A stretch of DNA of 64,000 nucleotides, taken from contig CANRWA010000014.1 in assembly GCA_947643415.1 (NCBI GenBank), positions 1-64,000 on the forward strand, read 5' to 3'. A program made the translations under genes and the position numbers. Below are positions 28,033-43,309 of this stretch, piece after piece; the stretch's first letter is position 1; each line of letters starts with the position of its first letter. The DNA is from an uncultured Clostridia bacterium. Its GTDB lineage: Bacteria > Bacillota > Clostridia > Lachnospirales > Lachnospiraceae. The notes below the pieces were generated by a model. It searched no databases. It saw only the letters and a program-made list of their open reading frames with translations, and had not been told where the DNA came from.

Positions 28033-28057
28033 GATCTGTTCATCCTTTCAAAAAATA

Positions 28058-28085
28058 AGCCGGAAAGAGGTTGCTCTATCCGGCT
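28058..28085 (-). terminator. intrinsic terminator or attenuator just before the adhesin gene
   Basis: On the minus strand AGCCGGA (28079-28085) pairs with TCCGGCT (28058-28064), followed by a U-rich run (TTATTTTTTGA). It ends about 18-25 nt before the adhesin ATG at 28032 and about 30 nt after the amidoligase stop. Adhesin expression from the upstream operon needs read-through. Confidence 0.75.
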
Positions 28086-28116
28086 GGTTTTATTTCTTTC
28101 ATATTTAATTGTTATA

Positions 28117-29073
28117 TCACCGGGGTTCCTGCCCCCGGTTTCTTTGCTGTAAGCAGGCATACTGGCTCTTGTCATAACGCCACGCCCGGTCACCTTCCAG
28201 ATTCTTCAAAAGGTGTTCCCGGACATTTTTATATTCCGGCCCGATCAGCCCAAGCCTTAAAAGAAATGTACGGAATGTAAACGCAGGATTTTCGGATATC
28301 TCCGTTTTCCGCATCTGTGTGCATTTCTGGTTGATGGCCTGCGCCGAGATCGCCAGCGCTAGCGTGATGTTCGCCCGCACCTGCCCCGCATGGAGCGTGC
28401 TTTCAAAACAGCGCCATTCCAGCGTTCCTTTCGAGAACACCGCATGCAGGTTCAGGGCATAATATCGGCTCCAGTTGTAATGTTCATCGCTGCCATCACC
28501 GCCCTCATACCATGCCCTCTTAAATTTTTCCATCGTAATCGTGCTGTTTGGCATCTTCCGGATCTTTTCCAGCACAGCCGGACGCACCTTCTGGCAATAA
28601 TCCCGCTCCCTGGAAGTCTGCACTTTCAGTGCTTTGAACAGGATATCCTCTTTAGAATACATGATCGTCATGGCATTCTTCAGGCTTCTTGGCGTGTGAT
28701 TGGAAGCGTCCACATGGACATGCTGGCCGCAGGAACTATTGACAAATGCCCCATGATGTCGCAGACACCGGACAACTTCCTGCAGCTTTCCCATTTCGGA
28801 ATACTCCAGTTTCGGGCTTACCATCTCGGTTGAATATTCCCCGTCTGCCCATACTTTACGGCCTGCCTCTTTTTTTTCGGTACAGATACTGCCATCCCTG
28901 GAGAATTTCCATTCCTTTCCCTGCTGGTCGCGCACACACCACGAATCATACGAAGTCCTGTGGTAATAGTCTGTACCAAACATTTGTGCCACAGCCTTTG
29001 CCGCGCGCAGTCTGGTGATACCCGTCATTTCGATCTCTGTACCAAAATACTGGTCCCGCAGGTCAATCGGCAT
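28117..29073 (-). CDS. amidoligase family protein
   Basis: About 318 residues. QYFGTEIEMTGITRLRA and SCGQHVHVDASNHTP are the two hallmarks of the PF12224 amidoligase family, a glutamine-synthetase-like fold that joins amines to carboxylates using ATP. Substrate unknown. The ATG at 29073 is 9 nt after a GGAGG inside the end of dcm, giving an 11-bp overlap. It shares the adhesin cargo block with a GGCT-like protein, which suggests an amide-modification module acting on a peptide or the cell surface. Confidence 0.85.
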   Translation of the reverse strand: MPIDLRDQYFGTEIEMTGITRLRAAKAVAQMFGTDYYHRTSYDSWCVRDQQGKEWKFSRDGSICTEKKEAGRKVWADGEYSTEMVSPKLEYSEMGKLQEVVRCLRHHGAFVNSSCGQHVHVDASNHTPRSLKNAMTIMYSKEDILFKALKVQTSRERDYCQKVRPAVLEKIRKMPNSTITMEKFKRAWYEGGDGSDEHYNWSRYYALNLHAVFSKGTLEWRCFESTLHAGQVRANITLALAISAQAINQKCTQMRKTEISENPAFTFRTFLLRLGLIGPEYKNVREHLLKNLEGDRAWRYDKSQYACLQQRNRGQEPR

Positions 29074-30352
29074 AGACAGCATCCTCCAGCCTTAATTCCT
29101 CATCCACCGCTTTCAGATTTCTGCCAATGGCTTCGACAACCGTCACAGTCACGCCATTTCCGGCCTGCTTATAAAGCTGCCTGTCAGACATCCCTACGAC
29201 CATCCGGTCAATCTGGCTGTCGTAATATCCCTGCAGCCGCAGACATTCCCTGGGGATCAGCCTGCGGATCCGTCCATGGTAAACAACGCCATGGCGGTCT
29301 GTAGCCGTGATCGTAAACATCGGTTCCTCCGGCTCTTTCATCCTCCGGCCATTCTGCCTTTTCTTAAGCCTGTCCGGTGTCAGGATCGCCCTCGGCCCTG
29401 TCTCAACAAGGACACCGGAACACTCCCCTTTATGTTTATGGATACTGGAATCCTGCCTTGTATTCAGGCAACGGGCATGTTCCGTCACGATCGGCGGAAC
29501 AGACAGATCCACAAAGTGAACCGTTCCCTGCTGGCTCTCCGTTGTCAGTGTATGGGCGATCTCATGCCCGACTCTCCCCCTGCGAGTGTTTAAGTTCGCA
29601 TACCCAAGGTCAATGCTGTCACCGGGATATGCCATCTTGTATCCTTTTTTCGTATTCTCCTTGATCGGGATCCCCACTTCATAAAGCCCGGTCTTGCCTC
29701 CCATGCCCCCGGCCTGTGAAGTAAGCGTACAGCTTACTCCGGCAGGATCGTAGACTCTTTTTCCCTGGCTTCCTGCAAGGATTTGTATAAGAGCTGCTCC
29801 GTTTGGTACTGGGACAGGTAATATTTTTCCGGCACATCTTCCATCAAGATATCCGATAAGATACACCCGCTTTCTTGACTGCGGGACTCCGAAATCCTTG
29901 CTGTTAAGCACCTTCCACTCGACATGGTACCCCAGCTCAGAAAACGTACCGAGGATGGTGTGAAACGTCCTCCCTTTGTCATGCGATAAGAGTCCGGGAA
30001 CATTCTCAAGGAGAAAATACGCAGGTCGTTTGTCTGCAACCAGTCTGGCAGCTTCAAAGAACAGGGTTCCTCTGGCATCGCCAAACCCTCCACGTTTTCC
30101 GGCAATGGAGAAAGCCTGGCAAGGAAATCCTGCGCATAAAAGATCAAAGTCCGGCATGGCTCCTGTTTCAATTTTTCTTGCATCGTCACAATACCACTCC
30201 CCTTCCGTATCGAACAGCCTTCGGTAGTTCGTGTCCGCATAGGAGTCCATTTCGCAGTGTCCGACACATTCAAAACCCCCGGCACGTCTCAGCCCTTCAC
30301 GGAATCCACCGATTCCGCTGAATAAATCAAAAAATCGAATCGTTCCGGCTAT
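29063..30352 (-). CDS. dcm: C5 cytosine DNA methyltransferase
   Basis: The catalytic Pro-Cys is in LCAGFPCQAFS, the ENV motif in FLLENVPGLL, and the C-terminal motif near RECLRLQGY. An ATG at 30250 would remove motif I. In the same frame upstream lies RFFDLFSGIGGFREGL, the complete motif I, so the protein must begin near 30340-30352. No ATG, GTG or TTG exists there; AUA at 30352 (3 nt after AAAGGAGG) or AUU at 30340 are the candidates. No restriction gene is adjacent, so it is an orphan methylase. Confidence 0.92.
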   Translation of the reverse strand: MAGTIRFFDLFSGIGGFREGLRRAGGFECVGHCEMDSYADTNYRRLFDTEGEWYCDDARKIETGAMPDFDLLCAGFPCQAFSIAGKRGGFGDARGTLFFEAARLVADKRPAYFLLENVPGLLSHDKGRTFHTILGTFSELGYHVEWKVLNSKDFGVPQSRKRVYLIGYLDGRCAGKILPVPVPNGAALIQILAGSQGKRVYDPAGVSCTLTSQAGGMGGKTGLYEVGIPIKENTKKGYKMAYPGDSIDLGYANLNTRRGRVGHEIAHTLTTESQQGTVHFVDLSVPPIVTEHARCLNTRQDSSIHKHKGECSGVLVETGPRAILTPDRLKKRQNGRRMKEPEEPMFTITATDRHGVVYHGRIRRLIPRECLRLQGYYDSQIDRMVVGMSDRQLYKQAGNGVTVTVVEAIGRNLKAVDEELRLEDAVYAD

Positions 30353-30365
30353 CCGCCTCCTTTCT

Positions 30366-30398
30366 GAAAAAAAACGGCATGGCTTTTAACCACACCGT
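30366..30398 (-). terminator. intrinsic terminator just before dcm
   Basis: As minus-strand RNA ACGGUGUGG and CCAUGCCGU form a 9-bp stem (two G-U) with an 8-nt loop, followed by eight U and then, within 4-5 nt, the dcm Shine-Dalgarno AAAGGAGG. It lies 40 nt past the stop of the acidic-tailed RHH gene. Confidence 0.8.
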
Positions 30399-30439
30399 TT
30401 CCTCTGCTTCTGATCTGTTGTTTTCCATGTATCTGCTGA

Positions 30440-31042
30440 TTATGCTCCTATTGGTTCTTCACCCTCATCTTTTCCCTCTGGTTCATCCGGCTCTGCTCCG
30501 GTATCCTCTGGTTTCCCGGATGGCAGCACTGTTTCGGATCCTTCGGTCACCTCTGGTTCTTCGGATTCGGGTTCTCCCTCAGTTTCTTCCGGTTCTTCCC
30601 CGGCTCCCTCAGTGCTTTCCGATTCTTCCTTGGCTCTCTCCGGTTCTTCCCCGGCTCCTTCCGGTTCTTCTTCGGCGCCCTCTTGTTCTTCTTCAGCCCC
30701 TTCTGCATCTTCCTGCCGGGATGCTGCAATTTCTTTTGCCCTTCTCGCATTCTCCTGCTCATCCTCTATTTCCTTGATTGCTTTCTCGATGATGCTTGTA
30801 AGGAAATCCTTCTGTTTGCATCCCTTCCATGCGACTGCTGCTTTGAGCCTTCCGAATAATTCCTCTGTTACCTGTACTGCGATTGTTCTTGCTGCCATCT
30901 GGTCCACTCCTTTTTCCATAAAATGTTCTTCGATTACCTGTTGCAGAAATTCTGGTGTGCTGATCCCACGCTGTTCGATCTCCCCTCTGACCTTCGCATG
31001 AAGTTCGACCGGGATCCTGCCGCATATGTTCTTCATTTCCAT
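30440..31042 (-). CDS. tandem ribbon-helix-helix-like protein with an acidic repeat tail
   Basis: 200 residues. Residues 1-40 (GRIPVELHAKVRGEIEQRGI) and about 50-95 (IAVQVTEELFGRLKAAVAWK) look like two RHH/Arc-type DNA-binding units. The last 100 residues are a Glu/Pro/Gly-rich repeat (units such as EEPEGAGEEPE). It lies just downstream of the ParM- and ParR-like genes, so a role in partition or autoregulation is reasonable. The ATG at 31042 follows AAAGGAGAGAGCGCAG. A 47-bp element repeated elsewhere on the ICE lies upstream. Confidence 0.6.
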   Translation of the reverse strand: MEMKNICGRIPVELHAKVRGEIEQRGISTPEFLQQVIEEHFMEKGVDQMAARTIAVQVTEELFGRLKAAVAWKGCKQKDFLTSIIEKAIKEIEDEQENARRAKEIAASRQEDAEGAEEEQEGAEEEPEGAGEEPERAKEESESTEGAGEEPEETEGEPESEEPEVTEGSETVLPSGKPEDTGAEPDEPEGKDEGEEPIGA

Positions 31043-31095
31043 CTGCGCTCTCTCCTTTCGTTTTGTTATACACACCATACTCCAAAGATGCATAC

Positions 31096-31142
31096 AAAGC
31101 TATTCACAATACCCAACAAACATCGGCTCCCAGATCATTGCA
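31096..31142 (-). repeat. ICE leader element, copy 1
   Basis: On the plus strand it reads AAAGCTATTCACA, five bases, CAACAA, eleven bases, CAGATC, three bases, GCA. The same blocks in the same order occur at 33335-33381. Both copies precede a minus-strand operon by about 55-65 nt. It likely contains promoter or activator sequence. Confidence 0.55.
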
Positions 31143-31193
31143 TAACCAACAATACATAGATGTATCTATACTTTCAAAACAGCACCACCTCCT

Positions 31194-31487
31194 TTACATC
31201 CCATCCTCCATCGCAGACAGAAAATCCAGCATCTGCACTGGAATTTCATCCGCTTCTGCCTGCACCGGGTTCTCAGACACGAAATGCGTATGCTTAAGTT
31301 CTTCCCGGATCACCTGGCGGATTATCCCCACCATTTTTTCACTGTCCTCAGACTGTAAGATCGCCTGAACCAGAAAAGCATTTTTTTGTCCGTTAGGAAC
31401 ACGCTGCAATATCTCCCATGCCCGTTTATGCTCCGGATCATCCAGTGTCGGGCGGAACGAAAAAACGGGGCGGCTCACCTCGCGCAC
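31194..31487 (-). CDS. ParR-like partner of the actin-like partition protein
   Basis: 97 residues, soluble, mostly helical: a basic N-terminus (SRPVFSFRPTLDDPEHKRAW) then helices (AFLVQAILQSEDSEKMVGII). Its position and size fit a centromere-binding ParR partner. It starts with GTG overlapping the end of the parM-like gene, so the two are coupled. The ParR call rests mainly on context. Confidence 0.55.
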   Translation of the reverse strand: MREVSRPVFSFRPTLDDPEHKRAWEILQRVPNGQKNAFLVQAILQSEDSEKMVGIIRQVIREELKHTHFVSENPVQAEADEIPVQMLDFLSAMEDGM

Positions 31488-32383
31488 ATCTGCCCCACAA
31501 TCCGTTCATATCCGGCAGCGTTGGCTTTTACGTCTGTTAGGTAAAAAGCCCTGCAAAGCCCGTCCTGCGGCGTCACGTGGCGTCTTACGATGGTGGAGCC
31601 GCCACCCATAAAAACGGAGGGGATTGCCCGCAGGTCAAAGCCTGCCTCCATAATGGCAGACAGGATCCGCTCTGTATAACTGCGCCCATTCTTCTGGATG
31701 ATCTCTTTGGCTTTCGGATCCAGGCTGCAGCTGTTTCCATTCAGGACACGCTCAATCTGGATATCTGTCACAGACAGCCCGGTACTCCTGCGCACCTGTT
31801 CCATTGTTTCATCGATACAGCGGATAACGCCAAGCTCAAGGCTGCGGCAGGTAGCCGCATTAGGAACAGCATTATCCAGCCGCATCAGGTCCACGGTCCA
31901 GCCGCCAATGTCCACCAAAAGAACAGACGGTTCATCCCGGACATACTCCGGATGGAGAGCCAGCGCAGAATAGCCCTGGGGGAACAGTTTCACATCCTCG
32001 ATTGTTAGTTCATACGCTTCGTTTTCATATCGGAAACAAAGCGGCTGCTCCTTCCGGAACAGATACTGCCGGAAAGCCGTCTTTTCCCTTCCAAAACCTG
32101 CAAGCGGCAATCCGGCTGCGAGGATGATCTTTCCCTTTCTCCCTGCCCTGCGGTATTCGATTTCCTGTGCCAGTGCTGCCATGGTCAGCAGGTAATAATT
32201 ATCATTGGCAGTCTTATCTTTCATAAGCGTCTGGCGTCCGGTACCGCAGACATAATAATTCCCCGCATACTGCAGCACGTTCTGCATCGTGTATGGCTCA
32301 TAGTCATACCGGGACAGTCCTGTTGGGAAACAGATATGCGGGGTTTTCATGGCATAATAGCCATGGTCGATTCCTATAATCAT
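31475..32383 (-). CDS. parM: ParM/StbA-like actin-family plasmid segregation protein
   Basis: 302 residues. Actin-fold ATPase motifs are phosphate 1 MIIGIDHGYYAMKT, phosphate 2 VLLVDIGGWTVDLM and adenosine VFMGGGSTIVRR. ParM proteins polymerise and push DNA copies apart. Its presence implies that the element spends time as a circular, replicating or segregating form. The ParR-like gene overlaps the 3' end. The gene is preceded by a 260-nt leader with a strong hairpin. Confidence 0.85.
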   Translation of the reverse strand: MIIGIDHGYYAMKTPHICFPTGLSRYDYEPYTMQNVLQYAGNYYVCGTGRQTLMKDKTANDNYYLLTMAALAQEIEYRRAGRKGKIILAAGLPLAGFGREKTAFRQYLFRKEQPLCFRYENEAYELTIEDVKLFPQGYSALALHPEYVRDEPSVLLVDIGGWTVDLMRLDNAVPNAATCRSLELGVIRCIDETMEQVRRSTGLSVTDIQIERVLNGNSCSLDPKAKEIIQKNGRSYTERILSAIMEAGFDLRAIPSVFMGGGSTIVRRHVTPQDGLCRAFYLTDVKANAAGYERIVGQMCAR

Positions 32384-32644
32384 AGGCTCACATCCCTTCT
32401 ATTTAATTTTTGAAACTGTGGGGGATCTTTGAACATCCACTGCGGGAAACCTGCCGGGAAAGGGAGTGCCTGCCGGCGGCGGGGATTTTTTTCCCAGCTG
32501 GTTAGAGTTCCCCAAAAAAATGGCAGTCAGAACTTTTTCTAAAAAGTCTGCCTGCCATTTTTTATAGTTTTCCGTATTATGGTGCGGGATTTGATTGTGC
32601 CGGATTGGATTTTTATGATTCTTCATCACTGCATTCTTTTCCCA
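32384..32644. promoter_or_regulatory. parM leader or possible centromere region
   Basis: A 261-nt gap between the 207-aa gene and parM. It holds the strong terminator-like hairpin at 32514-32563 and a GC-rich inverted segment (CTGCCGG / CCGGCGG, about 32450-32482). No clear iterons were seen by eye, so a parC site is not demonstrated. Confidence 0.35.
32514..32563. terminator. long bidirectional intrinsic terminator
   Basis: AAAAAAATGGCAG pairs with CTGCCATTTTTTT around an inner ACTTTTT/AAAAAGT stem. The arms carry A- and T-runs, so the hairpin can stop transcription in both directions. On the minus strand it separates the 207-aa gene from parM. Confidence 0.75.
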
Positions 32645-33268
32645 TCACAGCCCCTGCCTTTCTATCAGAAATGCCAGGATATCTTCCAGCGCATACTGGT
32701 AAATCAGATCGGCATATCGGCTCCAGCAATCATTGATGGAGCAGGTAAGCAGGTCAACCTGATCCATGATATCCTTTGGTGGATTCATAGATTTTAAGAT
32801 TTTATCCTGCTGCAGCGATTTTTCCCGCCTTTTCTGATATTCTTCATCTTTCTCCAGGAATTCCATCTCTGCATCGCTGGTCCTTGCCTCTATCAGCATA
32901 TCCGCCAGTTTTTTCTTTCTTGCCACATCTCCATCCGGATTGATCTCCTTCTGGATGCTTCTTAACATGCGCCCGTAAGAGAATACATGAGACTGTCCAT
33001 AATAATAGTGGTATTCCTTTTCCAGACGCTCCATGTCATCCTGATTGGACAGGTATTCTTTTAAAGCATAGTGTTCTTTTTCATTTAAAGTAACTGCCCC
33101 ATCCCCATCCACCGCTTTTTGCAGCATTGGATACTCTTTGATCAGTTTCCTCTGCCTTTTTTCTACATCCTGGTATTCCGGATGTTCTTTTCTCAGATAC
33201 TTTACGATCTGCTCGCCCACTTTCATTTCTATGGCATCCATCCACAGTTCTTCTAATTGTACATGCAT
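32645..33268 (-). CDS. hypothetical helical protein
   Basis: 207 residues, strongly helical and charged, no membrane segment. The N-terminal half (LWMDAIEMKVGEQIV, then ALKEYLSNQDDMERLEKEYH and YYYGQSHVFSYGRMLRSI) has a two-helix pattern reminiscent of DUF6809-type small proteins, but I cannot confirm it. It is followed by the terminator before parM and preceded by the second copy of the ICE leader element, so it forms a short separate transcript. Confidence 0.55.
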   Translation of the reverse strand: MHVQLEELWMDAIEMKVGEQIVKYLRKEHPEYQDVEKRQRKLIKEYPMLQKAVDGDGAVTLNEKEHYALKEYLSNQDDMERLEKEYHYYYGQSHVFSYGRMLRSIQKEINPDGDVARKKKLADMLIEARTSDAEMEFLEKDEEYQKRREKSLQQDKILKSMNPPKDIMDQVDLLTCSINDCWSRYADLIYQYALEDILAFLIERQGL

Positions 33269-33334
33269 TCCGCTTCGCTCCCTTCTTATTCATTGTGTTC
33301 TATCAAGCATTACACTATACCATTTTCGGCTGAG

Positions 33335-33381
33335 AAAGCTATTCACAGAATGCAACAAGATTTTCTTCCACAGATCGTGCA
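33335..33381 (-). repeat. ICE leader element, copy 2
   Basis: It reads AAAGCTATTCACA, five bases, CAACAA, twelve bases, CAGATC, two bases, GCA, parallel to 31096-31142. On the minus strand it precedes a TATAGT box about 16-17 nt downstream of the GAATAGCTT block, so the shared sequence probably lies at and upstream of the -35 position. Confidence 0.55.
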
Positions 33382-33396
33382 AACTACCTATTATCG

Positions 33397-34119
33397 CTAT
33401 CTGGATGGATCGTTTCGCTTTTTAGGTTTATCCCTATTTTTTTGTTTCGCCTTTTTAAGTTTCCGCACCTCAGCTGCCCCTTTTTCTACCATTGCTTTCA
33501 GCTCCGGCAGTGAAATATTCCAAATGGAAGAATCCTTGCTGAAAAAGCGGATACCATGCGTTTTCATAATCATGTCACCTATTTCGGGATATACCGTAAC
33601 CACATCCGGAGGCTGCAATGGATACTCAATCAGGGGATGATATTTAATCTCCCCGGATATTTCCTCCAGCACCCTTTCTTCCATTTCCGGTGTGCAATCC
33701 TCATAAGCGCTCCGTCCGGTCAGTTCATGATAGGCTTCATCCCCAACATAATTAAGTAATTCAAATTCACAGTCTCCATACTGCTCTACTTTTGTCAGGG
33801 AATCCGGATTCTCCAACGCCGCCATATAGATTTCTTTCCCCTGTGCGATCAGCCATGCCCTGAAATCCATAAACCCATCATCCGAACAGCCATACTCTTT
33901 TATTAGAGTGGCTGCCGTCCAAAGCCCGTATTGATCGGCTGCATCCCGGTACCCGTGCATAATCGCATGAAATTGCAGGGATTGTTCCGGCGGCATACGA
34001 AGCAGTTCTTTTTTGATCCAGGAAATAGATGCGTCCATATCCTGTCCGCATTGATTTTTTGTTTCTTCAATGAGCTGCCAGAAAGTTTCTTTATTTATTT
34101 CCGTTATTTTACTGCCCAT
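33397..34119 (-). CDS. DUF4240-like protein
   Basis: 240 residues. MGSKITEINKETFWQLIEET and FMDFRAWLIAQGKEIYMAAL are typical of the DUF4240 domain, seen in predicted immunity or stress proteins. The C-terminal 50 residues are Lys-rich. Soluble; no catalytic residues can be assigned. The ATG has GGGAGGCTTGAT upstream. It follows the 185-aa gene by about 35 nt, so both are probably one transcript. Confidence 0.7.
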   Translation of the reverse strand: MGSKITEINKETFWQLIEETKNQCGQDMDASISWIKKELLRMPPEQSLQFHAIMHGYRDAADQYGLWTAATLIKEYGCSDDGFMDFRAWLIAQGKEIYMAALENPDSLTKVEQYGDCEFELLNYVGDEAYHELTGRSAYEDCTPEMEERVLEEISGEIKYHPLIEYPLQPPDVVTVYPEIGDMIMKTHGIRFFSKDSSIWNISLPELKAMVEKGAAEVRKLKKAKQKNRDKPKKRNDPSR

Positions 34120-34153
34120 ATCAAGCCTCCCTCATTATACTTGTGGATAAACC

Positions 34154-34711
34154 TCACGATCTTTCCTGCTCTTTTTTCCTGCCTGCTTTTTCCGTCACCA
34201 TCTCCCGGCTCATATCCTCAAAGAAATACTCCGCCAGATGCTTCATCCCCTCAAAGGACTGTTCATCAGGCATGGCTATTGAAATAACCACGGCATCTAT
34301 ATATTTTTTCCCATTTATTTCACGGTACAGTTCCTGATAATCTCCCCAATAACCCTCCCCGCCTGTCTTAATATCCTCATATCGTCCATCAACCTCAATC
34401 AGGTAGCATGCCGTATCAACACCAATTTCTTTTCGTTCTGTCTTTTGTGACGCATACATCTTTTCATCCATATATATGGGAAGATGTTGTTCCGGGGCAA
34501 AATAAACGGTCATTGTCCGTGCCATGTATCCTGGAAACTCAGGATATTCCGTTTCCGTCAGCAATACGCCTGCCTTAAACTCCGGATTGGGCTTATAATC
34601 GACTACCAGCTTTTTAAGTCTCTCCGGTTCATTTTTAAAATCTTCATAATACAATGGATCCCCAAATTGAATTCGTTTGGGACATTTAATTTTTAATTTT
34701 TCTTTCCGCAC
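34154..34711 (-). CDS. hypothetical protein at the start of the ICE operons
   Basis: About 185 residues, soluble: LKIKCPKRIQFGDPLYYEDF, then beta-rich sequence with GYMARTMTVYFAPEQ, and a charged C-terminus. Family not recognised. The open frame extends to 34789, but a GTG at 34711 is 7 nt after AGGAGG and removes an unconserved-looking leader. It is the first gene after the terminator at 34834-34857, so it may head a transcription unit. Confidence 0.55.
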   Translation of the reverse strand: MRKEKLKIKCPKRIQFGDPLYYEDFKNEPERLKKLVVDYKPNPEFKAGVLLTETEYPEFPGYMARTMTVYFAPEQHLPIYMDEKMYASQKTERKEIGVDTACYLIEVDGRYEDIKTGGEGYWGDYQELYREINGKKYIDAVVISIAMPDEQSFEGMKHLAEYFFEDMSREMVTEKAGRKKEQERS

Positions 34712-35188
34712 TCTATCACCTCCTAGCATTGATGCGTTTCGCCACATTTTGTTGCATAATTCCTGACTCCCGAACGCTTTCTTTACCATTTCAAGTAATT
34801 AAATGAAATTTATTCTATTTTCTCCAAAAAGAAAATAGCCGGAAAAATCCGACTATTCCTTATTATCTATATCATAATAGGTTACATTTATTTTTTATTA
34901 AAAAGGATTGCTTCCTTAGTACATTTACGCTTTTGAATGTGTTTTAGTTTAAAAGATATCACTTTAACTAACCCAATGTCTTCTTATATGCTATTTATAT
35001 ATCCCAATATCGCAACACCTTATCTACAGCTGATACCACACGCACCTTAAAGCGTGTATATTTTCCATAAAACTGTATTTTGAAAATATAATACTGCTTT
35101 CTAAGAGGTATTATATCTAGGTAGCATAAAATTCCAAAAACACTTATTATTATGAAAATAATTACCCCATTTTTCTCTCCTTCTCATC
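34712..35188. other. AT-rich intergenic stretch between ICE backbone and island
   Basis: Contains one minus-strand terminator (34834-34857) and no ORF with a believable start. AT content is clearly higher than in the ICE backbone to the left. No direct repeat marking an attachment site was found by eye. Confidence 0.4.
34824..34857 (-). terminator. intrinsic terminator between island and ICE backbone
   Basis: On the minus strand AATAGTCGGA and TCCGGCTATT form a 10-bp stem (one G-U) with a U-rich loop, followed by a TTTCTTTTTGG run. It ends transcripts coming from the two-gene unit at 35.2-35.8 kb. Confidence 0.7.
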
Positions 35189-35515
35189 CTATTTAAAAAA
35201 TAATTTGTTCATTGAATTTAAAATTGTTAATGCCTGTTGAAAAATTATTTTTTTAGGTAAGTTCTCCATTCCATATAGTCGTGCCCACTCTTCAATAGCA
35301 CTGCCGACTAACCTCATGAGGTCTTGTGTCATTTGGTCTTGCATCGTTTCATTACTTGCTTCTTGTCTCTTCTCAGATAACGCATCAGAAACAACCTCAT
35401 CTACTTTATTACACAATTCTACTTTTCCATCTCTGTCCTCTTTTTGACGAGAGGACAATGTGTTTTTTCCGAACCTTCTTACACTTTTAATATGAAAAAT
35501 TTTTTTAAAACCCAT
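35189..35515 (-). CDS. unknown small protein (second gene of the two-gene unit)
   Basis: 108 residues, no membrane segment. A basic N-terminus (FKKIFHIKSVRRFGK) is followed by an acidic helical middle and a C-terminal amphipathic part ending NSMNKLFFK. No family recognised. Its ATG overlaps the end of the upstream gene by 11 bp, so the two proteins are probably made in a fixed ratio. The pair is followed by an intrinsic terminator. AT-rich codon use separates it from the ICE backbone. Confidence 0.6.
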   Translation of the reverse strand: MGFKKIFHIKSVRRFGKNTLSSRQKEDRDGKVELCNKVDEVVSDALSEKRQEASNETMQDQMTQDLMRLVGSAIEEWARLYGMENLPKKIIFQQALTILNSMNKLFFK

Positions 35516-35831
35516 TCATGTAGACCTCCAAATTACTATTAAGCATATCATTTAATCGATCCATATACCCCATCGCATAGTCAAGTGCTGCCCCGTCCAT
35601 ATGGAGTTGATCAATAAAAACCTGAGTTTTTGCTATCTCATCAATATTAGCCCTGGCTACTTCTCCCATTCCTCGTGCTCTCGCAATCGTTTGAAAAGCT
35701 CGAATTTTTTCTTTCAAGATAATTGATTCCTGCTTCTTTACCGTCCTAAGAGTCTTGTATGTGTTAACCATAGCTCCTAATGCGGTGCTAACTTCTTTAG
35801 CTGCTGTCCAAACTGTAAGATTATTACTCAT
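35505..35831 (-). CDS. unknown small helical protein (first gene of the two-gene unit)
   Basis: 108 residues, almost entirely helical: TVWTAAKEVSTALGAMVNTY, a KTLRTVKKQESIILKEKIRA coil, then a DQLHMDGAALDYAMGYMDRL amphipathic segment. No family recognised; no enzymatic motif. The ATG at 35831 follows GAAGGAGTGTGGTATT; a longer frame lacks a signal. It sits directly behind a strong promoter-like region with a large inverted repeat, downstream of the HTH-HAD gene. Confidence 0.6.
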   Translation of the reverse strand: MSNNLTVWTAAKEVSTALGAMVNTYKTLRTVKKQESIILKEKIRAFQTIARARGMGEVARANIDEIAKTQVFIDQLHMDGAALDYAMGYMDRLNDMLNSNLEVYMNGF

Positions 35832-35917
35832 AATACCACACTCCTTCGTACATGCTAAGTTCACAGCCTTCAGGCAAAGCAAGAAGAATATTTTTTCATT
35901 ATCTTCTTGATATTACC

Positions 35918-35946
35918 ATTTTATACCATTAAAGAAGTACAAGCAA
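35918..35946 (-). promoter_or_regulatory. promoter of the two-gene unit
   Basis: On the minus strand the -35 TTGCTT (35941-35946), a 17-bp spacer and the -10 TAAAAT (35918-35923) lie about 90 nt before the ATG at 35831. The inverted-repeat operator lies immediately upstream of the -35. Confidence 0.5.
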
Positions 35947-35950
35947 TTAC

Positions 35951-36014
35951 GTGGTTTGTGAGAATAGAAAGACGGTTTGTGACAAAACAAATAATATTTT
36001 TGTCACAAACCGTC
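35951..36014. promoter_or_regulatory. 17-bp perfect inverted repeat plus a half-site (operator, also a terminator hairpin)
   Basis: GACGGTTTGTGACAAAA (35971-35987) and its exact complement (35998-36014) flank a 10-nt AT loop; a third copy of GGTTTGTGA lies at 35953-35961. The block lies between the HTH-HAD stop (36018) and the -35 box of the two-gene unit. It could end the HAD transcript and/or be bound by a regulator, the encoded HTH protein being the natural candidate. Confidence 0.6.
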
Positions 36015-36017
36015 ACA

Positions 36018-37097
36018 TCACAGATGATTAATTATTTCTGTTAAATCTTCACAAGTTTGGATACACCTATTCCAAACAAGCGTATTAGTAGTATCAGTCA
36101 ACTTTGGATTAACACACAATGTCCTGGCACCCGATATATACGCAAACCGATCATTAACAGAATTTCCAATAAATAATATATCTCTTGGCGAAATTTTTAA
36201 CTCCATTGCAATTTCTGTTATAAAATCTGCTTTACCTTCAAAATCGTACTTTGTCCCAATTATCTCCGTTAAAAAACCGCTTTGATTATACCTAAATTGA
36301 TTAGCCTTTATTCCATCTACATACTGATACAAACTACCCAAAACCAAACGGATAACTGAAAGTATTGAACCAGAAACTATATATATCTTGATATCACGTT
36401 TTTGCAATTCTCGGAAAGTTTTCCGAGTTCCTTTCATTAATTTAATTTTCGAAGCAATATTCTCTACCGTATTTCTATGCAAATTACGTTCACGAAATTT
36501 TTCTTCTGTCAATTTACACCACTCCGCATGAGAAATTTCGTTTCTATCATATCTCATATGTAATTCCTGGCACATTCTTACATCATAATCAAGACTTATC
36601 CATAAACTTTCCCATGTCGTCCTATTAGTTTTTCCAGACGTTAATGTCCCATCAAAATCAAAAACAACAACCTGCGTTCTTCCTGTTGGCTGAATATCAT
36701 TTAGTCCATATACATCTACAGAATATTTGTTTTTTGCCAAATCATAACATATGTTTAGTATCTCTCCGGCAAATTGATTCATCATAGGATATAGTATTCT
36801 TAATTTATGATATAAAACCTTTGCTTTTTGTCCTATTAAAAAAATCCTTATTTCTTCATACACTTTATTATCTTTTTGAGGATCACATGTAATGTTATCA
36901 ACCAAATACTCTTTTATGTCAATAATTCCTTGTTGACGCGGAAGACATCTTCCTTCAAACCAATATCTAACTGTCGACGCACTCCAATGATATTTTTCTG
37001 CAAAATAATAATAATCAAGCTTGTACTCATCAAAAAATCTTTTCAGCCAAATGCCAAATTGCTTTTTCCAAATTGAATTATCCTTTTTTCTGCTCAT
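36018..37097 (-). CDS. HTH domain fused to a HAD-family phosphatase
   Basis: About 359 residues. Residues 15-65 (EKYHWSASTVRYWFEGRCLP) form an XRE-like helix-turn-helix. A helical linker leads to a HAD phosphatase of the phosphoserine-phosphatase type: nucleophile motif VVFDFDGTLT (about 145-153), motif II IYIVSGS, and motif IV LFIGNSVND (about 308-316). The fusion could sense or hydrolyse a phosphorylated metabolite and control transcription. It is the last gene of the island cluster in transcription order before the two-gene unit and ends at a large inverted repeat. The ATG at 37097 has better spacing (GGGAGATACT) than the one at 37109. Confidence 0.8.
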   Translation of the reverse strand: MSRKKDNSIWKKQFGIWLKRFFDEYKLDYYYFAEKYHWSASTVRYWFEGRCLPRQQGIIDIKEYLVDNITCDPQKDNKVYEEIRIFLIGQKAKVLYHKLRILYPMMNQFAGEILNICYDLAKNKYSVDVYGLNDIQPTGRTQVVVFDFDGTLTSGKTNRTTWESLWISLDYDVRMCQELHMRYDRNEISHAEWCKLTEEKFRERNLHRNTVENIASKIKLMKGTRKTFRELQKRDIKIYIVSGSILSVIRLVLGSLYQYVDGIKANQFRYNQSGFLTEIIGTKYDFEGKADFITEIAMELKISPRDILFIGNSVNDRFAYISGARTLCVNPKLTDTTNTLVWNRCIQTCEDLTEIINHL

Positions 37098-37242
37098 AGT
37101 ATCTCCCATCCCCTAACACGGTACTATATTTTGTAAATCAAATAATAAAATGAAGCTATGCCTATTTTCTAGGTTTCCAGCTCTTTTTTTAATATAACAA
37201 AACATAATTTGTGATATTCTCATTATACCTTTGTATACTTAA

Positions 37243-39036
37243 CTACTGCTCCTCACTCTCCCTTAATAATTTCTCCAATTTTTTGTTTACCTTGATACGA
37301 TTATCAATTTGCAACTTTCCACAAAACATATAACACATTTTTAAAATAAACCACCATGTATACAATACTTTATAGGAATTGAATTGTTTATCAGCAACTA
37401 AGCCATGTGCAATATCATTTCGCATGTTAAAACCGAACTTAGAACAAAAAATAGTCTTGATTGCCAATAAGAAATCATCATCAAGACATTCTTTTACTCC
37501 TTCCAATTCTAAAACAGCATGCATTGTCTTTAATTCCTCTATACCATTCTCATTCAAATTATAAACTGGCTCACCACATTGCATTGCAAGCTCTCGAACC
37601 GAATTTTCTACTTGTGGAATAAGTATATATAATGCAGTCAAGAAATCACCTAAAAATCCTGCCATTAGCCCTTTAATATATGCCTCTTTTCTATCCTCTG
37701 GCACAATAACGCTATTTTCGACAATCTCTCGTATATCTTTTTCTTCAATTACAAACTTTGAACGAATATAATTTAATGTGTTCCAAATCATAATTTGAGA
37801 AAAAAAATCCATTAATTCTGAAGTTCTATGTTCCAATGCATCCTGAAATGCCCCTAGATCAACTTCATCATTAGATTTTTTTATAGGTCTGCTTTTTGCA
37901 ATGGATTTTCCATCTTTTCCTAATATCCCTATTGGAAACAAGCTCCCAAATCCGAAGAAAGTGTCTGCAGAACTTGTGACAGACTGTTCTACTCGTTTTC
38001 TTTCCGGCACAGGAATAAACAACGCAAAATAACAAATTATTTCTTCCTTATCTAAAACTTCAAGCTGCTTTATCAATTGCCTAACAGTTTCCCGATTATC
38101 CTGTTGAGATGAAAATACTGGAATATCCGATACCATCCTCTTTTCCATTTCATCAACTCGTTTAAGCAATTCCTTTCGTTCTGTTTCAGTACCTTCGATT
38201 GTTTTTAATATATTTATTGCATTTTTTAAAAAAGTGATTGATCTTATCAAACTCCCAGTCTCTGAGGTATTAAGAATATTTCCTGCCATCATAATTGCTC
38301 TGACTTTACGCCTACGTATTTCAATTAATTTAGGCTCAGATACACATTTTTTCTTTGCCCATTTAAATTTTTTATAGTATAACATTTCAAGTGTGTCGCA
38401 AAATTCTCCAATAATATGATAGTCATAACTTTTATCATCATACATATTTAAAATTTTTTCAGTATATTGAAGTAAGTAATCCTCATCAACATGTTCATTC
38501 GCAGCCGTTTGAATTAGATGTAATATTTTTCCATGATCCTCATTATTATACTGATTCAACACCCTCATAAGTAATCTACTTCGAATAGATTCATCAATAT
38601 TTCTACTGTGTATATTTTTTGAAATAGAGACAAGACGATTAATTGCCATAAAATTATAATCAAACCCTTGCGTTGATTCTATGTGGATACGATACAATTC
38701 TTCTGCTTGCTTTGCTGCCACAAAGTCTCTGTCCACAACCCATAGAAAATCATTAATCTTTGCCTTATTAATATCTGCAATTGGGTATTCCAATATTTCT
38801 TTTAATAAATCTCTATCACTTTTCACATCAGTATCACTCATTTTCCATATATCTCTTGCGAAAGAAAATGGGATATCTTCTGGTCTATATACCCACCGTT
38901 CAAGTATAATATCATGTAAAAAATTTTCCGTTCCAAAACAGTCAAGATTAGTTACTTTCTCTAATTCTTCGGCCGCAATATTAAAATTTTTCTCCTCAAG
39001 TATTTTGGCAATATCACTTACCAACAAATTTTCCAT
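37243..39036 (-). CDS. large HEPN-like (DUF4209-type) protein
   Basis: 597 residues, nearly all helical. The C-terminal region holds KFGFNMRNDIAHGLV (about residue 535-549), an Rx4H motif of HEPN ribonucleases (R-N-D-I-A-H), within a segment that resembles DUF4209. HEPN proteins with this motif often cut RNA in phage defence or toxin systems. The N-terminal 400 residues are alpha-helical repeat-like and may be the sensing part. It sits between a Septu-like pair and the HTH-HAD gene, all on the same strand in AT-rich DNA. A 375-nt gap upstream suggests its own promoter. Confidence 0.75.
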   Translation of the reverse strand: MENLLVSDIAKILEEKNFNIAAEELEKVTNLDCFGTENFLHDIILERWVYRPEDIPFSFARDIWKMSDTDVKSDRDLLKEILEYPIADINKAKINDFLWVVDRDFVAAKQAEELYRIHIESTQGFDYNFMAINRLVSISKNIHSRNIDESIRSRLLMRVLNQYNNEDHGKILHLIQTAANEHVDEDYLLQYTEKILNMYDDKSYDYHIIGEFCDTLEMLYYKKFKWAKKKCVSEPKLIEIRRRKVRAIMMAGNILNTSETGSLIRSITFLKNAINILKTIEGTETERKELLKRVDEMEKRMVSDIPVFSSQQDNRETVRQLIKQLEVLDKEEIICYFALFIPVPERKRVEQSVTSSADTFFGFGSLFPIGILGKDGKSIAKSRPIKKSNDEVDLGAFQDALEHRTSELMDFFSQIMIWNTLNYIRSKFVIEEKDIREIVENSVIVPEDRKEAYIKGLMAGFLGDFLTALYILIPQVENSVRELAMQCGEPVYNLNENGIEELKTMHAVLELEGVKECLDDDFLLAIKTIFCSKFGFNMRNDIAHGLVADKQFNSYKVLYTWWFILKMCYMFCGKLQIDNRIKVNKKLEKLLRESEEQ

Positions 39037-39411
39037 CCTACCACCTCATGTATATTTGTTACACTGAATTATACGAGAAAGTTTTTTGTTTTGCCAGCAT
39101 ATCTTTTTTAAATGCAAAAGCCAGCAATAATTCTTTCTACATCACAAGTTATCTAAAATCCTTATCCTATCATCTACTTTCTGATATAAAAGAAATTGTC
39201 TAAAATCATACAATTCATTTACTAATCACTATCTGGCCGCTGACCCTTTTTTCTAGATTTGTTTTTACTTTTTCGCCTGATTCTTCCGCAGTTTTTGTAC
39301 CTATATGAATCTTTCTTCTACAGTTCTCCTATCCTTTTATTTCCATGTATTCTATCCACACATCCGCATAAAGGCTTGTCTTATTACTGATAAAAAAATG
39401 TATATTTATTT
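39037..39411. other. AT-rich intergenic region between ptuB and the HEPN gene
   Basis: 375 nt, no ORF with a ribosome-binding site. I could not assign a promoter or terminator with confidence. A promoter for the HEPN gene is expected here. Confidence 0.35.
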
Positions 39412-40440
39412 TTATTCTATTGTATTACTATCGCTAGACAATTGTTTATATATATCCTGTTTTAGCTTTGCTAACGGCTCATCTAACGGTTTCATATCAA
39501 GGAAATCAAACCATAATGAAAAGACATCTCCCATATCAAGTCCCATTGTCTTTATGTAATATTTCTCTTTAAATGCTTCATATTCTTTGAAATTATGCAG
39601 AAGTCTCTTTATATCTGGTATATGTGTTTGATAAATTTCTTCCAATCTAAATACTTTATTTGAAGCAATAGATTTTGGATTCCCTTGAGTATTTACAATT
39701 ATTTTTTTTACATTCAAAGAATACATGGATTCCACATCATTCAAGGGTATTTCAAAAATCAAACTATCCGTTCCGTCCCGATACGGGTTTAAGTGCCTTT
39801 CATCCTTAAACCCCTTTGTTTTTGAATTGCAAATATTACAACTAGGAATCATATTATAAATATTCATTTGCAAATATGGAAATAAGGATTTCGGATAATA
39901 GTGGTCTACATCCGCAGTAGTTTTTTCAATTTCTTTTCCTGAATTATAGGATGTTATATATTGTCGATTACAATACGGACAAACCTTAACGCCTGTATTA
40001 ATAACATAAACATGCCGATTCCAAAGAACTCTTTTCCCCTCTACTCCCTCAACCTTTCTTCCAGAATTAAAATTTTCATAATCTAAAACAGAATCAAAGA
40101 GTTCTTTTATCTCTTTAGCTATCTTTTTTTGTTTATCGCTTTCTGGATTCTTAAAAGAAAATTTGAACAAATCAAAAAATGTTTTTTCAAAGTTATCCAC
40201 AAGCTTTTCCAAATCATCCGAAATACATAAGTCAAGCACCCTTATTACTCTTTCTTGTTTCTTCTGTCCTAAGAGATTCTTTAAAAAGGTGCGGTATTGA
40301 TCGCATAAAGAATCTGCTGGTTTTTTCGTTGTTCCGCTTAAATATGTTTCTAATTTTTCTAATACTGACTCTCTAATATACTGTTTATGCAAATATATAT
40401 TTTTCTCTTTAATTGCATTCTTTAATTCAATTTTTATCAT
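39412..40440 (-). CDS. ptuB: HNH endonuclease, Septu PtuB-like
   Basis: 342 residues. A zinc-supported HNH core: VCPYCNRQY (about 150), catalytic DVDHYYPKS (about 176) and SCNICNSKTKG (about 198). The DH...N arrangement is that of PtuB and other defence HNH nucleases. The N-terminal 100 residues are helical and may bind the ATPase. Its ATG overlaps the end of the ATPase gene by 14 bp, the usual Septu arrangement (ptuA-ptuB). Predicted to cut nucleic acid when the ATPase detects infection. Confidence 0.88.
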   Translation of the reverse strand: MIKIELKNAIKEKNIYLHKQYIRESVLEKLETYLSGTTKKPADSLCDQYRTFLKNLLGQKKQERVIRVLDLCISDDLEKLVDNFEKTFFDLFKFSFKNPESDKQKKIAKEIKELFDSVLDYENFNSGRKVEGVEGKRVLWNRHVYVINTGVKVCPYCNRQYITSYNSGKEIEKTTADVDHYYPKSLFPYLQMNIYNMIPSCNICNSKTKGFKDERHLNPYRDGTDSLIFEIPLNDVESMYSLNVKKIIVNTQGNPKSIASNKVFRLEEIYQTHIPDIKRLLHNFKEYEAFKEKYYIKTMGLDMGDVFSLWFDFLDMKPLDEPLAKLKQDIYKQLSSDSNTIE

Positions 40441-42343
40441 TATGTTGTCCTGCCAGCCGTTTGTAGTACAAATCTCTCTGTAGTTTTCTTTTTACAAAAG
40501 GCTCTCCTATATTTTCAATAATATACTCTACTTCTTCATTGCTAATATCCTTTGCTTTGTTTTCTATATAGTCTAAAACCTTTTGAATTTTATATTTGGA
40601 AAAACCTCCAATACTTCCTTCTTCCATAAAAAATGAATCATAAAACAATTGATTAATATTCGCCCCAAATGTCAAAGTTTCCTGCTTTGTAACTCGACAT
40701 AAAGATCGCAAATAAATTACCCTATCGTTCGGAATATCTGAGAGAATAATGGGTGAGTGTGAGGCCAAAACTATCTGAACTTTTTTATTATTGAACTCTT
40801 CACTTTCATTAATCCATCTCACAATATGCGTTAAAATGTTTTGCTGCCATTTTGGATGAAGATATGCGTCTATTTCATCAATTATTAGCAATATATTTCC
40901 CTCTGTCTGTTCCTTCATCACTTTATAAATTGAAGAAAATATATTAATTAATGCCACTTCTCCTGATGACATTGGATTAGGTATAATCCTAAGCATTCGC
41001 CACCAAAATGTTTCCGGATTTTGATGTTCATTTAATAAAACTTCAATCAACTTCAAATATCCGTCATTTATTTTTTCAGGAAGATTGAGATATCCATATT
41101 GCTTTTCATAATCAGATTTAAATGCTTTTACTTGATAATACCATTGCGCTTCTCTTAGAATAGGTTTCTTATCATAAATTTCAAAGAAATCATCTAATAC
41201 ACTTAAGTCTATTCCCCTAACGTTTCGTATTTTAAGAATCAATTCCTTCTTTCTTAAATCAGGAATTTGATTCATAATTACCTCAAATCCATCTGTCTTT
41301 TCTATACTGCAAGCGTTCATTTCAATTTCATCAAAATCAATATTTTTGTGATCTCCATTAAGGACATTCATGAACATGATTATTTCACACAGAATGTTCG
41401 CATATATTTTTTTCCAATTATCATTTTGCAAAAACTTTATAATATTCTCATATATATTTTTTCTAATAAAATAAACGCTTTTATCAAATTCACTTAACAT
41501 TCCAAAATTTTTACTATTTGCAATGTATTCTCCAAATTCTACCACAGACAATTTGAAATCCGAAAAGACAGGAAGTATAGCTGCAATTGAACTAGGTGTA
41601 TGCCTTACCGCAATCAAAAAATTATAACTAAATGCACTTGCGTATGCATCTTCAATGCCAACTCCCATTTTTTGAGCGTACTTCTGTATCACATCTAAAA
41701 CCAAACCATCCTCTTTAGATTGCGCCCCATATCCCTCTTGAATATACCGCATTTCTCTTTTTATCATTAACATGGGAGAATTACATATTGATTTTTTATT
41801 GTTTCCCTCAGAAAATTCTCCCATGCCTTGATTCCTAATAGTATGACTTACATCAAAAGCATTGGTCAAATATACAATGGACATCTCATGTTTTCTTCTT
41901 GCCCGTTCAAATGCATCAGCAGTCATCTCATACAGATTTATCCATTCACAATCTATATCATTATCAATATCTTTCTCAAATGTTTCTTGAGAATAATAGA
42001 ATATATATAATTTATTACTCTGACCATCACTTTCTTCCTTCAAGTAAATTATGATCTTAGTAAACTTATATTCGTCAATGTCATCATCTACAGGAACAAC
42101 ACTACTACAAATATCGTATATACATTTTGCAACCGTTGTCTTGCCAGCACCATTTTCTCCAACAATTGCTGTAACATCTAAAATATTTTTTCCATAGAAA
42201 TCACATATGTATTTTTCATTTTTACTGATAAATAACTTATTTAAATCATTATCAAAATGGATCAGATATTCTGGCGAAAAGGAAAATCCCTGATTTTTAA
42301 TTCGATCATTATAGTTTTCCATCCATAAATAGAGCAATTTCAT
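40427..42343 (-). CDS. ptuA: AAA/ABC-type ATPase, Septu PtuA-like
   Basis: 638 residues. Walker A is GENGAGKTTVAKC (about 62), the ABC-like signature NPMSSGEVAL (about 454), Walker B LLIIDEIDAYLHPKW (about 486), and the His switch LASHSPIIL (about 527). The split ATPase with a long helical insert matches PtuA/OLD-like defence ATPases. It has a promoter with an extended -10 just upstream and is coupled to ptuB. The pair alone suffices to call a Septu-like system; the flanking HEPN and HTH-HAD genes are extra. Confidence 0.88.
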   Translation of the reverse strand: MKLLYLWMENYNDRIKNQGFSFSPEYLIHFDNDLNKLFISKNEKYICDFYGKNILDVTAIVGENGAGKTTVAKCIYDICSSVVPVDDDIDEYKFTKIIIYLKEESDGQSNKLYIFYYSQETFEKDIDNDIDCEWINLYEMTADAFERARRKHEMSIVYLTNAFDVSHTIRNQGMGEFSEGNNKKSICNSPMLMIKREMRYIQEGYGAQSKEDGLVLDVIQKYAQKMGVGIEDAYASAFSYNFLIAVRHTPSSIAAILPVFSDFKLSVVEFGEYIANSKNFGMLSEFDKSVYFIRKNIYENIIKFLQNDNWKKIYANILCEIIMFMNVLNGDHKNIDFDEIEMNACSIEKTDGFEVIMNQIPDLRKKELILKIRNVRGIDLSVLDDFFEIYDKKPILREAQWYYQVKAFKSDYEKQYGYLNLPEKINDGYLKLIEVLLNEHQNPETFWWRMLRIIPNPMSSGEVALINIFSSIYKVMKEQTEGNILLIIDEIDAYLHPKWQQNILTHIVRWINESEEFNNKKVQIVLASHSPIILSDIPNDRVIYLRSLCRVTKQETLTFGANINQLFYDSFFMEEGSIGGFSKYKIQKVLDYIENKAKDISNEEVEYIIENIGEPFVKRKLQRDLYYKRLAGQHNDKN

Positions 42344-42377
42344 TCCATAACCCTCTTTACTTTAATTTATATACAAA

Positions 42378-42386
42378 ATTATATCA
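42378..42386 (-). promoter_or_regulatory. extended -10 promoter of ptuAB
   Basis: On the minus strand TGATATAAT ends about 35 nt before the ptuA ATG. No good -35 is seen, which is normal for TGn-extended promoters. The -10 hexamer occupies 42378-42383. Confidence 0.45.
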
Positions 42387-42521
42387 TAGCTCGAATATAT
42401 TAAAAAGATTCATCTTAATCTCGAATCGATCTACATATCCCAACTAATACCAGAAGAAGGACTCTTCTTACTTATATTTAATTCATCACCGAACTGATAT
42501 CTCCACTCTTTATTGAAAATT

Positions 42522-42812
42522 TCAATGATGCAACACATACGTATCATGTTTTTTTATTATAGTAATTGCCTGTTTCACCGTATGGGTACCACACTGTCTG
42601 TGATAATAAGCCACATCTCTTGTATGCTTATGGTATAAAATAATTGAGTAATTGCCTGTACGTTGTTTTATTATAATCCATTGATGCCCTGTATTCCGTG
42701 ATCTAAGTTCATAATATCTATCCGTGATTCGCAAAACCTCGAAATAAATATCTTTAAGACTTTTCCTTTCATCTTTAGTCCATATAATTCTTCTTAATAT
42801 TTCATGTTCCAT
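42522..42812 (-). CDS. hypothetical small basic protein
   Basis: 96 residues, basic, rich in Tyr, His and Ile: RNTGHQWIIIKQRTGNYSII then YYHRQCGTHTVKQAITIIKK. The beta-hairpin-plus-helix pattern recalls small nucleic-acid binding folds, but no family is recognised. The ATG at 42812 overlaps the end of the upstream gene, suggesting a two-gene unit. AT-rich; lies between the Septu pair and the Tad locus. Confidence 0.5.
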   Translation of the reverse strand: MEHEILRRIIWTKDERKSLKDIYFEVLRITDRYYELRSRNTGHQWIIIKQRTGNYSIILYHKHTRDVAYYHRQCGTHTVKQAITIIKKHDTYVLHH

Positions 42813-43122
42813 ACTTTTTTCTCCAAGCACTTTGCTTTCCCCTGATTTCGTGTTTAAACCGATAATATGAATACAAATTCCACAAATTCGCCATTATTGA
42901 AAAATCTTTTCTATAAATAAATCTCATTCTCAGAGGTACTTGTTGCTTCTGACACCAACCATAAATATCTTTCATCATCATCTTTTCTCCATTATTGATC
43001 CGATTGATAAGAATATTTTTCTTGTATTCATCTAATCCGACTCTAAATAATAAGTAGAATAAGACGTTATAGTACCCAACTAAGATAACTTCGCTACTAC
43101 CTTCTTTTTCCATGTACGCCAT
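42802..43122 (-). CDS. hypothetical small protein next to the truncated pilin gene
   Basis: 106 residues. A hydrophobic N-terminal third (VILVGYYNVLFYLLFRVGL) is followed by a basic, aromatic C-terminal half. No family recognised. The upstream signal is GGAAAGGTGGAAAGTGTGC. The gene lies 50 nt past the end of the broken flp1 gene, so it is the first island gene after the junction. It may be transcribed by read-through from the Tad operon. Confidence 0.5.
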   Translation of the reverse strand: MAYMEKEGSSEVILVGYYNVLFYLLFRVGLDEYKKNILINRINNGEKMMMKDIYGWCQKQQVPLRMRFIYRKDFSIMANLWNLYSYYRFKHEIRGKQSAWRKKYGT

Positions 43123-43173
43123 GCACACTTTCCACCTTTCCCTGTATTTATCGTACTATTTATCCACATATTC

Positions 43174-43293
43174 TTACGCCATACACCTTATACCCACCCC
43201 ATAATAGGGGGTGAATATTCCCACAAGGATCAGTATGATCTCCACCACACCAATAGCATCTTCTTCCTTCAAAAACATTTTTACCTCTTCCAT
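43174..43293 (-). pseudogene. flp: truncated Flp1-family type IVb pilin
   Basis: 39 codons. MFLKEEDAIGVVEIILILV is the exact Flp1 prepilin signature: charged leader, Gly-Val-Val-Glu after the cleavage site, start of a hydrophobic helix. Intact clostridial Flp1 continues with about 20 more hydrophobic residues and a FK.Q tail. Here the sequence switches to GIFTPYYGVG and stops, and no other frame restores the helix. The good ribosome site (AAAGGGG) and 17-nt spacing after tadC show that it belongs to the Tad operon. The break marks the junction with the AT-rich island. Confidence 0.7.
43195..43214. repeat. small inverted repeat at the flp1 junction
   Basis: CACCCC-ATAATAGG-GGGTG lies exactly where pilin similarity stops. 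It may be the element terminus or only a hairpin; no matching copy was seen at the far end of the window. Confidence 0.3.
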
Positions 43294-43309
43294 GTCAAAA
43301 ATCCCCTTT

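Follow-up and report, generated by a model that had tools for sequence, protein, structure and literature searches.

The window analyzed here, the whole 64,000-nucleotide (nt) stretch from position 1 to 64,000 of contig CANRWA010000014.1 (contig C14, at whose first base it begins) from an uncultured Clostridia bacterium of the Lachnospiraceae, carries an island of six minus-strand genes (35189..42343) that looks, by a modest balance of probability, like three modules side by side: a PDC-M62 gene pair, a DUF4209 HEPN gene, and a unit in which a helix-turn-helix (HTH)-HAD fusion gene is followed by two small genes, sm1 and sm2. The first two modules correspond to known defense candidates (PDC-M62 and PDC-S39), and the third is a conserved unit without a name. 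The six genes are probably not one system, judging from where their relatives occur, and HTH-HAD, sm1, and sm2 appear to form a conserved three-gene unit of their own. The island comprises the following features.

40427..42343, minus strand: PtuA-like AAA ATPase, 638 amino acids (aa), PADLOC PDC-M62A, by profile matches
39412..40440, minus strand: PtuB-like HNH nuclease, 342 aa, PADLOC PDC-M62B, by profile matches
37243..39036, minus strand: DUF4209 HEPN protein, 597 aa, PADLOC PDC-S39, by profile matches and Rx4H motif
36018..37109, minus strand: HTH-HAD fusion, 363 aa
35971..36014, no strand: 17-bp perfect inverted repeat with a 10-nt gap, putative operator or terminator, by repeat search and RNA folding
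35953..35964, minus strand: third half-site, TTCTCACAAACC, 21 nt from the site in the nearer arm
35505..35831, minus strand: sm1, 108 aa counted from an ATG, predicted four-helix bundle (the open reading frame as listed begins at a TTG, 35882)
35189..35515, minus strand: sm2, 108 aa, C-terminal half conserved

Re-checked coordinates and strands, together with GC content in 1-kb steps, confirmed that this is an AT-rich island of six minus-strand genes, as a prior sequence-only reading of this DNA had it: GC content is 0.30 to 0.35 across 35 to 43 kb, 0.44 to 0.55 over 1 to 34 kb to the left (first kb, 0.40; 34 to 35 kb, 0.375), and 0.44 to 0.49 over 43 to 54 kb to the right (0.36 to 0.46 past 54 kb). 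Genes overlap within modules: the PtuA-like and PtuB-like genes by 14 nt, and the start of sm2 and the end of sm1 by 11 nt. Rfam gave no RNA element match within 33000-43300 at E values up to 0.5.

The Septu-like pair of the sequence-only reading was borne out: module 1 is predicted to be a Septu-type ATPase-HNH pair, and as such is already the candidate PDC-M62. The 638-aa protein matched PDC-M62A (E = 4.6e-70) and PtuA1 (E = 3.8e-21) in PADLOC and PF13304 (71 bits) in Pfam; its best solved relatives are the PtuA chains of retron Ec78 (E = 6e-7). The 342-aa protein matched PDC-M62B (E = 9.7e-41) and PtuB1 (E = 2.4e-8), while its Pfam HNH match (E = 0.0023) lies under the family cut-off. The pair thus shows the adjacent M62A and M62B genes that define PDC-M62 and, like Septu, an ATPase gene and an HNH nuclease gene side by side in the same orientation; unlike Septu, for which PtuA1/PtuB1 should be the best match, it scores far better on PDC-M62A/B. 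A survey handled PDC-M62 as a duplicate of Septu, the two sharing 203 of 343 duplicate pairs (PMC11811056). Retron Ec78 PtuA and PtuB are more distant, with the NCBIfam equivalog cut-offs far off (63.9 of 500 bits and 13.9 of 150 bits).

Module 2 is the 597-aa protein, which the sequence-only reading had credited with an HEPN-like Rx4H motif and assigned to no nameable system. The motif was confirmed: all four aligned DUF4209 proteins share R539 and H544, in the Rx4-6H arrangement. A name was available, since the protein matches PADLOC PDC-S39 over nearly its full length (E = 9.7e-80) and DUF4209 (PF13910) at 50.5 bits (gathering cut-off, 22.3). DUF4209 has been described as an HEPN family found in operons related to restriction-modification (PMC3710099). 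Sharing both profile and motif, the island protein shows no clear difference from other members and appears to be an ordinary one; it would be a single-gene candidate, presumably an RNase working in abortive infection.

Modules 1 and 2 occur apart elsewhere. Using tblastn (E = 1e-3), we found no other island protein at any of six DUF4209 loci outside the source genome, nor at either of two PDC-M62 loci. The DUF4209 loci came from 3 of 29 plasmid records and from 3 of the 4 places other than the island's own in 150 family genomes, where four genomes (source genome included) had a match; two are short, one (L098) beginning 254 nt before the gene and the other (L100) holding just 137 aa of it close to the end of its contig; each of these therefore tests little beyond one side. 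PtuA matched 38 plasmid records, and the PDC-M62 loci came from 2 of these. The idea that all six genes make up one composite defense system, with HTH-HAD controlling sm1 and sm2, draws on their shared orientation and low GC content, but we reject it as very improbable: no further island gene was present at these eight loci, PADLOC treats the parts as separate candidates, and a common low GC content fits stepwise capture of cargo equally well. Of the co-occurrence that the sequence-only reading proposed to look for, then, the part concerning DUF4209 and PtuAB failed at these loci, and the pairing of HTH-HAD with sm1 and sm2 found support.

Evidence for that pairing is indirect and comes from contig sizes. 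Relatives formed 504 clusters for HTH-HAD (120 listed), 25 for sm1, and 29 for sm2, each cluster being represented by its one longest contig. Six contigs had coinciding sizes: sm1 and sm2 shared 254392, 6821, 4715, and 5646; among the matches listed, HTH-HAD shared 172833 and 5646 with sm2, and 3137 and 5646 with sm1, so that 5646 was common to all three families. When sizes were jittered, the mean number of chance coincidences was 0.09 (sm1/sm2), 0.24 (HTH-HAD/sm2), and 0.21 (HTH-HAD/sm1), and the observed count was reached in 0%, 2.0%, and 1.8% of 5000 trials, respectively. These shared sizes support sm1 and sm2 as a linked two-gene unit paired with HTH-HAD.

Neither small protein was named by any library searched. 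For the sm1 protein, Pfam, PADLOC, NCBIfam, and PHROGs all lacked a family match with E below 0.012. Its model (predicted local distance difference test score, 89) is a four-helix bundle, and for sm1 the description of the two as small helical proteins therefore stood; its fold gave no significant structure match (best E, 0.19 in the PDB and 0.13 among viral models), so we draw no function from it. In sm2, 23 columns are invariant across 21 aligned sequences, every one of them at residue 64 or later. Among 397 family genomes, sm1 was found only in its own, plus a 20-bit match inside a 523-aa frame; sm2 was likewise confined to the source genome in sets of 39 genus and 329 family genomes. Two relatives are chimera-like, P0137 (sm1 with a PF03721 protein) and P0167 (sm2 with an HTH-HAD-like start), which may reflect assembly artefact or recombination.

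The third member of the unit keeps the catalytic positions of a phosphatase. Its HAD domain has the phosphoserine-phosphatase (PSP) fold and exceeds the cut-off of the HAD-IB subfamily model TIGR01488 (51.8 bits; cut-off, 45). D151 and D153 (the DxD motif), S246 (the Ser/Thr motif), K293 (the Lys motif), and D320 (the final Asp) are invariant in all 48 aligned sequences, as is N316 within motif IV, GNSxND. Motif IV of HAD-IB phosphatases usually has an acid at the position of N316. The cap region best matched cytosolic 5'-nucleotidase III (E = 6e-7), with phosphoserine phosphatase behind (E = 1.1e-5), and the invariant W197 in this region aligns to a Trp of the nucleotidase. The match to the nucleotidase family itself (PF05822, UMPH-1) falls short of gathering at 20.8 of 23.7 bits, although some relatives pass, such as L005 at 39.4 bits. 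The protein thus resembles the HAD-IB phosphatases in fold, catalytic positions, and cap, which is nearest nucleotidase III; it differs from them in motif IV, in its N-terminal domain, which is helical by prediction, and in its score on SerB, 50.2 bits against a cut-off of 144.15. Motifs and fold therefore upheld the HAD half of the proposed HTH-HAD fusion; the HTH half is weak. HAD domains also occur in vWA-MoxR conflict systems (PMC7159879). Those derived domains are described as possibly inactive and as lacking key residues, a lysine among them (PMC7159879), whereas all 48 sequences of the HTH-HAD alignment have K293.

Further clues came from fusions. In a scan of genome contigs with the A1 profile, for which all statements hold among the matches listed, L005 and L006 had the HAD domain on the C-terminal side of PNP_UDP_1, and L008 had it on the C-terminal side of DUF4062; in a nine-sequence search, the HAD domains of all three matched A1 at E below 1e-80. 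The PNP parts match the PADLOC models for PN-superfamily effectors and PDC-M60C. DUF4062 is a reported antiphage NADase family (PMC13174449), and nucleoside phosphorylase has been predicted to generate second messengers in conflict systems (PMC7159879). L008 resembles the Swarozyc DUF4062 antiphage NADases in having DUF4062 ahead of this same HAD domain; the 363-aa window protein, unlike them, has no DUF4062 match in Pfam. The available text of the NADase report contains neither "phosphatase" nor "haloacid," and "had" appears there only as a verb or an author's name (PMC13174449). Because the HAD domain recurs behind NADase-like and phosphorylase domains, these fusions suggest a link to conflict and a class of substrate. 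We rejected two other readings of the relatives: a TIR-like N-terminus in L004, noted by eye, was unsupported by Pfam, PADLOC, or PDB sequence searches, and of HTH-like linkers in L005, L006, and L008, the sole trace was a sub-threshold HTH_25 match in L006.

We searched for the full-length HTH-HAD protein in genome sets drawn at relative, order, and phylum level, which overlap with one another and with those used for sm1 and sm2. It was present only in the source genome among 99 relatives (one further match, HAD only), only in its own among 392 order-level genomes (127 had any match, the others being partial, HTH or HAD, among the matches listed), and only in its own among 398 phylum-level genomes (nine further partial matches). 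No match was found in viral contigs or phages, and four plasmids had an HAD-only match. Our literature search returned no paper joining HAD-IB, defense, and phage, and no title or abstract on this HTH-HAD family, which suggests that the HTH-HAD/sm1/sm2 family is undescribed as far as that literature goes.

Taken on these sequence features, the unit is probably a regulator-enzyme with two small partners, acting as a conflict or nucleotide-stress module. The HAD domain would be a phosphatase of nucleotidase-like type whose substrate, as we infer from cap and fusions, is a small molecule derived from a nucleotide; the HTH-like N-terminal domain could regulate it or anchor it to DNA, and sm1 and sm2, whose genes overlap, could be its partner or output. 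A defense role seems likely from the company the unit keeps. A more specific proposal, which we regard as tentative and rather doubtful, is that HTH-HAD/sm1/sm2 is an antiphage system not described before and represents one branch of a wider design with a constant C-terminal HAD domain and a varying HTH-like, DUF4062, or phosphorylase N-terminus, in which nucleotide degradation is coupled to sensing and sm1-sm2 are the output. If module 3 does protect, an active phosphatase family would join nucleotide-based bacterial immunity, and its three-gene cassette is testable.

Several results weigh against this interpretation. Over the whole alignment, phosphoserine phosphatases (2.4e-10) are favored over nucleotidase III (1.7e-6), and the substrate of the HAD domain may accordingly be something other than a nucleotide. 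Residues 1-141 match no Pfam family, PDB HTH chains were reached at E values of only 0.0015-0.004, and PADLOC matches are weak (PDC-S34, 2.3e-6; a stray PtuA1, 0.007). Promoter-like sites show no excess (46, with 48.0 expected from shuffles). Eleven of the 17 HAD relatives examined in genome contigs stand alone, some near housekeeping genes; the domain is therefore not defense specific. Among the matches listed, 23 of 25 sm1 sizes and 27 of 29 sm2 sizes, the 254-kb contig included, lack an HTH-HAD match. Finally, L003 has an HTH-HAD protein (45% identical) without an sm1 or sm2 relative, beside a PIN/kinase/VWA/PP2C cluster; the partners of HTH-HAD therefore vary.

The L003 cluster has an organization of its own: at L003:7932-15272, HTH-HAD is next to HTH, PIN-kinase, VWA, and PP2C genes in a TerY-P-like arrangement. 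The TerY-P triad consists of VWA, PP2C, and a kinase with a zinc ribbon (PMC11090510), and in L003 HTH-HAD stands immediately ahead of such a set; its domains are absent, by Pfam and PADLOC, from the ten window proteins tested around the island.

The strong inverted repeat that had been noticed ahead of sm1-sm2 was confirmed: its arms (35971-35987 and 35998-36014) pair perfectly at 17 of 17 positions, and the predicted RNA fold of this stretch has an energy of -27.8 kcal/mol (z = -6.1), a stability that none of 200 shuffles equaled. We give roughly the same probability to a regulatory role for the repeat and to a role in termination. One possibility, less likely than not, is that HTH-HAD binds three half-sites as a repressor or activator and so sets expression of sm1-sm2, which could for example be a toxin-antitoxin-like or infection-induced pair, while its HAD domain senses a phosphorylated metabolite. 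The perfect 17-bp repeat between HTH-HAD and sm1, the third half-site at 21-nt spacing (one mismatch), the sm1/sm2 overlap, and the contigs shared with HTH-HAD all agree with such control. The region upstream of HTH-HAD, however, has no matching site at up to 2 mismatches, the conserved catalytic residues suggest an enzyme, and the HTH call is weak. Nor does the genome point to a regulon: it contains three exact half-sites, two of which are the repeat itself, against two for the reversed control, and viral contigs gave no exact pattern match. Nor is the half-site motif enriched within the window, where it occurs 9 times with no more than 2 mismatches against an expectation of 5.5, and where 8 of 100 shuffles have as many; the local cluster alone stands out. 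Alternatively, and with no greater probability, the repeat could be the terminator of HTH-HAD, with sm1-sm2 transcribed on their own. It starts 3 nt past the HTH-HAD stop codon, is followed by a T-rich stretch, and forms a very stable hairpin; the terminator scan, which has a loop limit of 8 nt, did not list it, and a terminator would leave the third half-site unexplained.

The island appears to be cargo carried by an integrated mobile element, close to one of its ends. To its left lie genes for a relaxase, a TraG-like ATPase, two DNA methylases, and a large SpaA-type surface protein; the relaxase and TraG-like genes support the integrative conjugative backbone proposed from sequence alone, to which a TrbL-like match, under its cut-off, adds weak support. 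To its right, the Tad locus is indeed broken, its Flp pilin gene being cut at about 43,221:

43222..43293, minus strand: first 24 codons of the interrupted Flp pilin gene, by comparison with intact genus-mate genes and with its remainder on contig C42

These 24 codons match the intact genes present at five of six genus-mate loci, the sixth not having been picked up by the search, and the sequences diverge at about 43,221. The rest of the pilin gene, with the next Tad gene after it, lies on contig C42 of the same assembly (genome G000; L092; about 13.8 kb), beside three tyrosine recombinase genes and two DUF6262 genes. From the halves on C14 and C42 we infer that insertion of a mobile element divided the pilin gene, with the island as cargo near one end; the two contigs are unjoined in the assembly, and one element may cover both. 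A contig in an Oscillospiraceae metagenome-assembled genome (MAG), L013, is 99.6% identical to window positions 28012-36245 (8.2 kb), which reflects either recent transfer or a binning error.

This setting would also suit a role for HTH-HAD and sm1-sm2 in routine transfer or maintenance of the element, unrelated to defense, in keeping with the element genes on the left and the near-identical copy in another MAG. We consider this unlikely: viral contigs held no sm1 or sm2 relative, plasmid and phage records lacked P0157 (an sm2 relative), and the HAD fusions point to conflict domains.

Two further observations concern the element. At its end, positions 42522-43128 hold two small low-GC open reading frames (102 and 108 aa) with no family match above chance. 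Its surface protein (1757 aa; 22759-28032) combines a thioester domain with 11 SpaA stretches.

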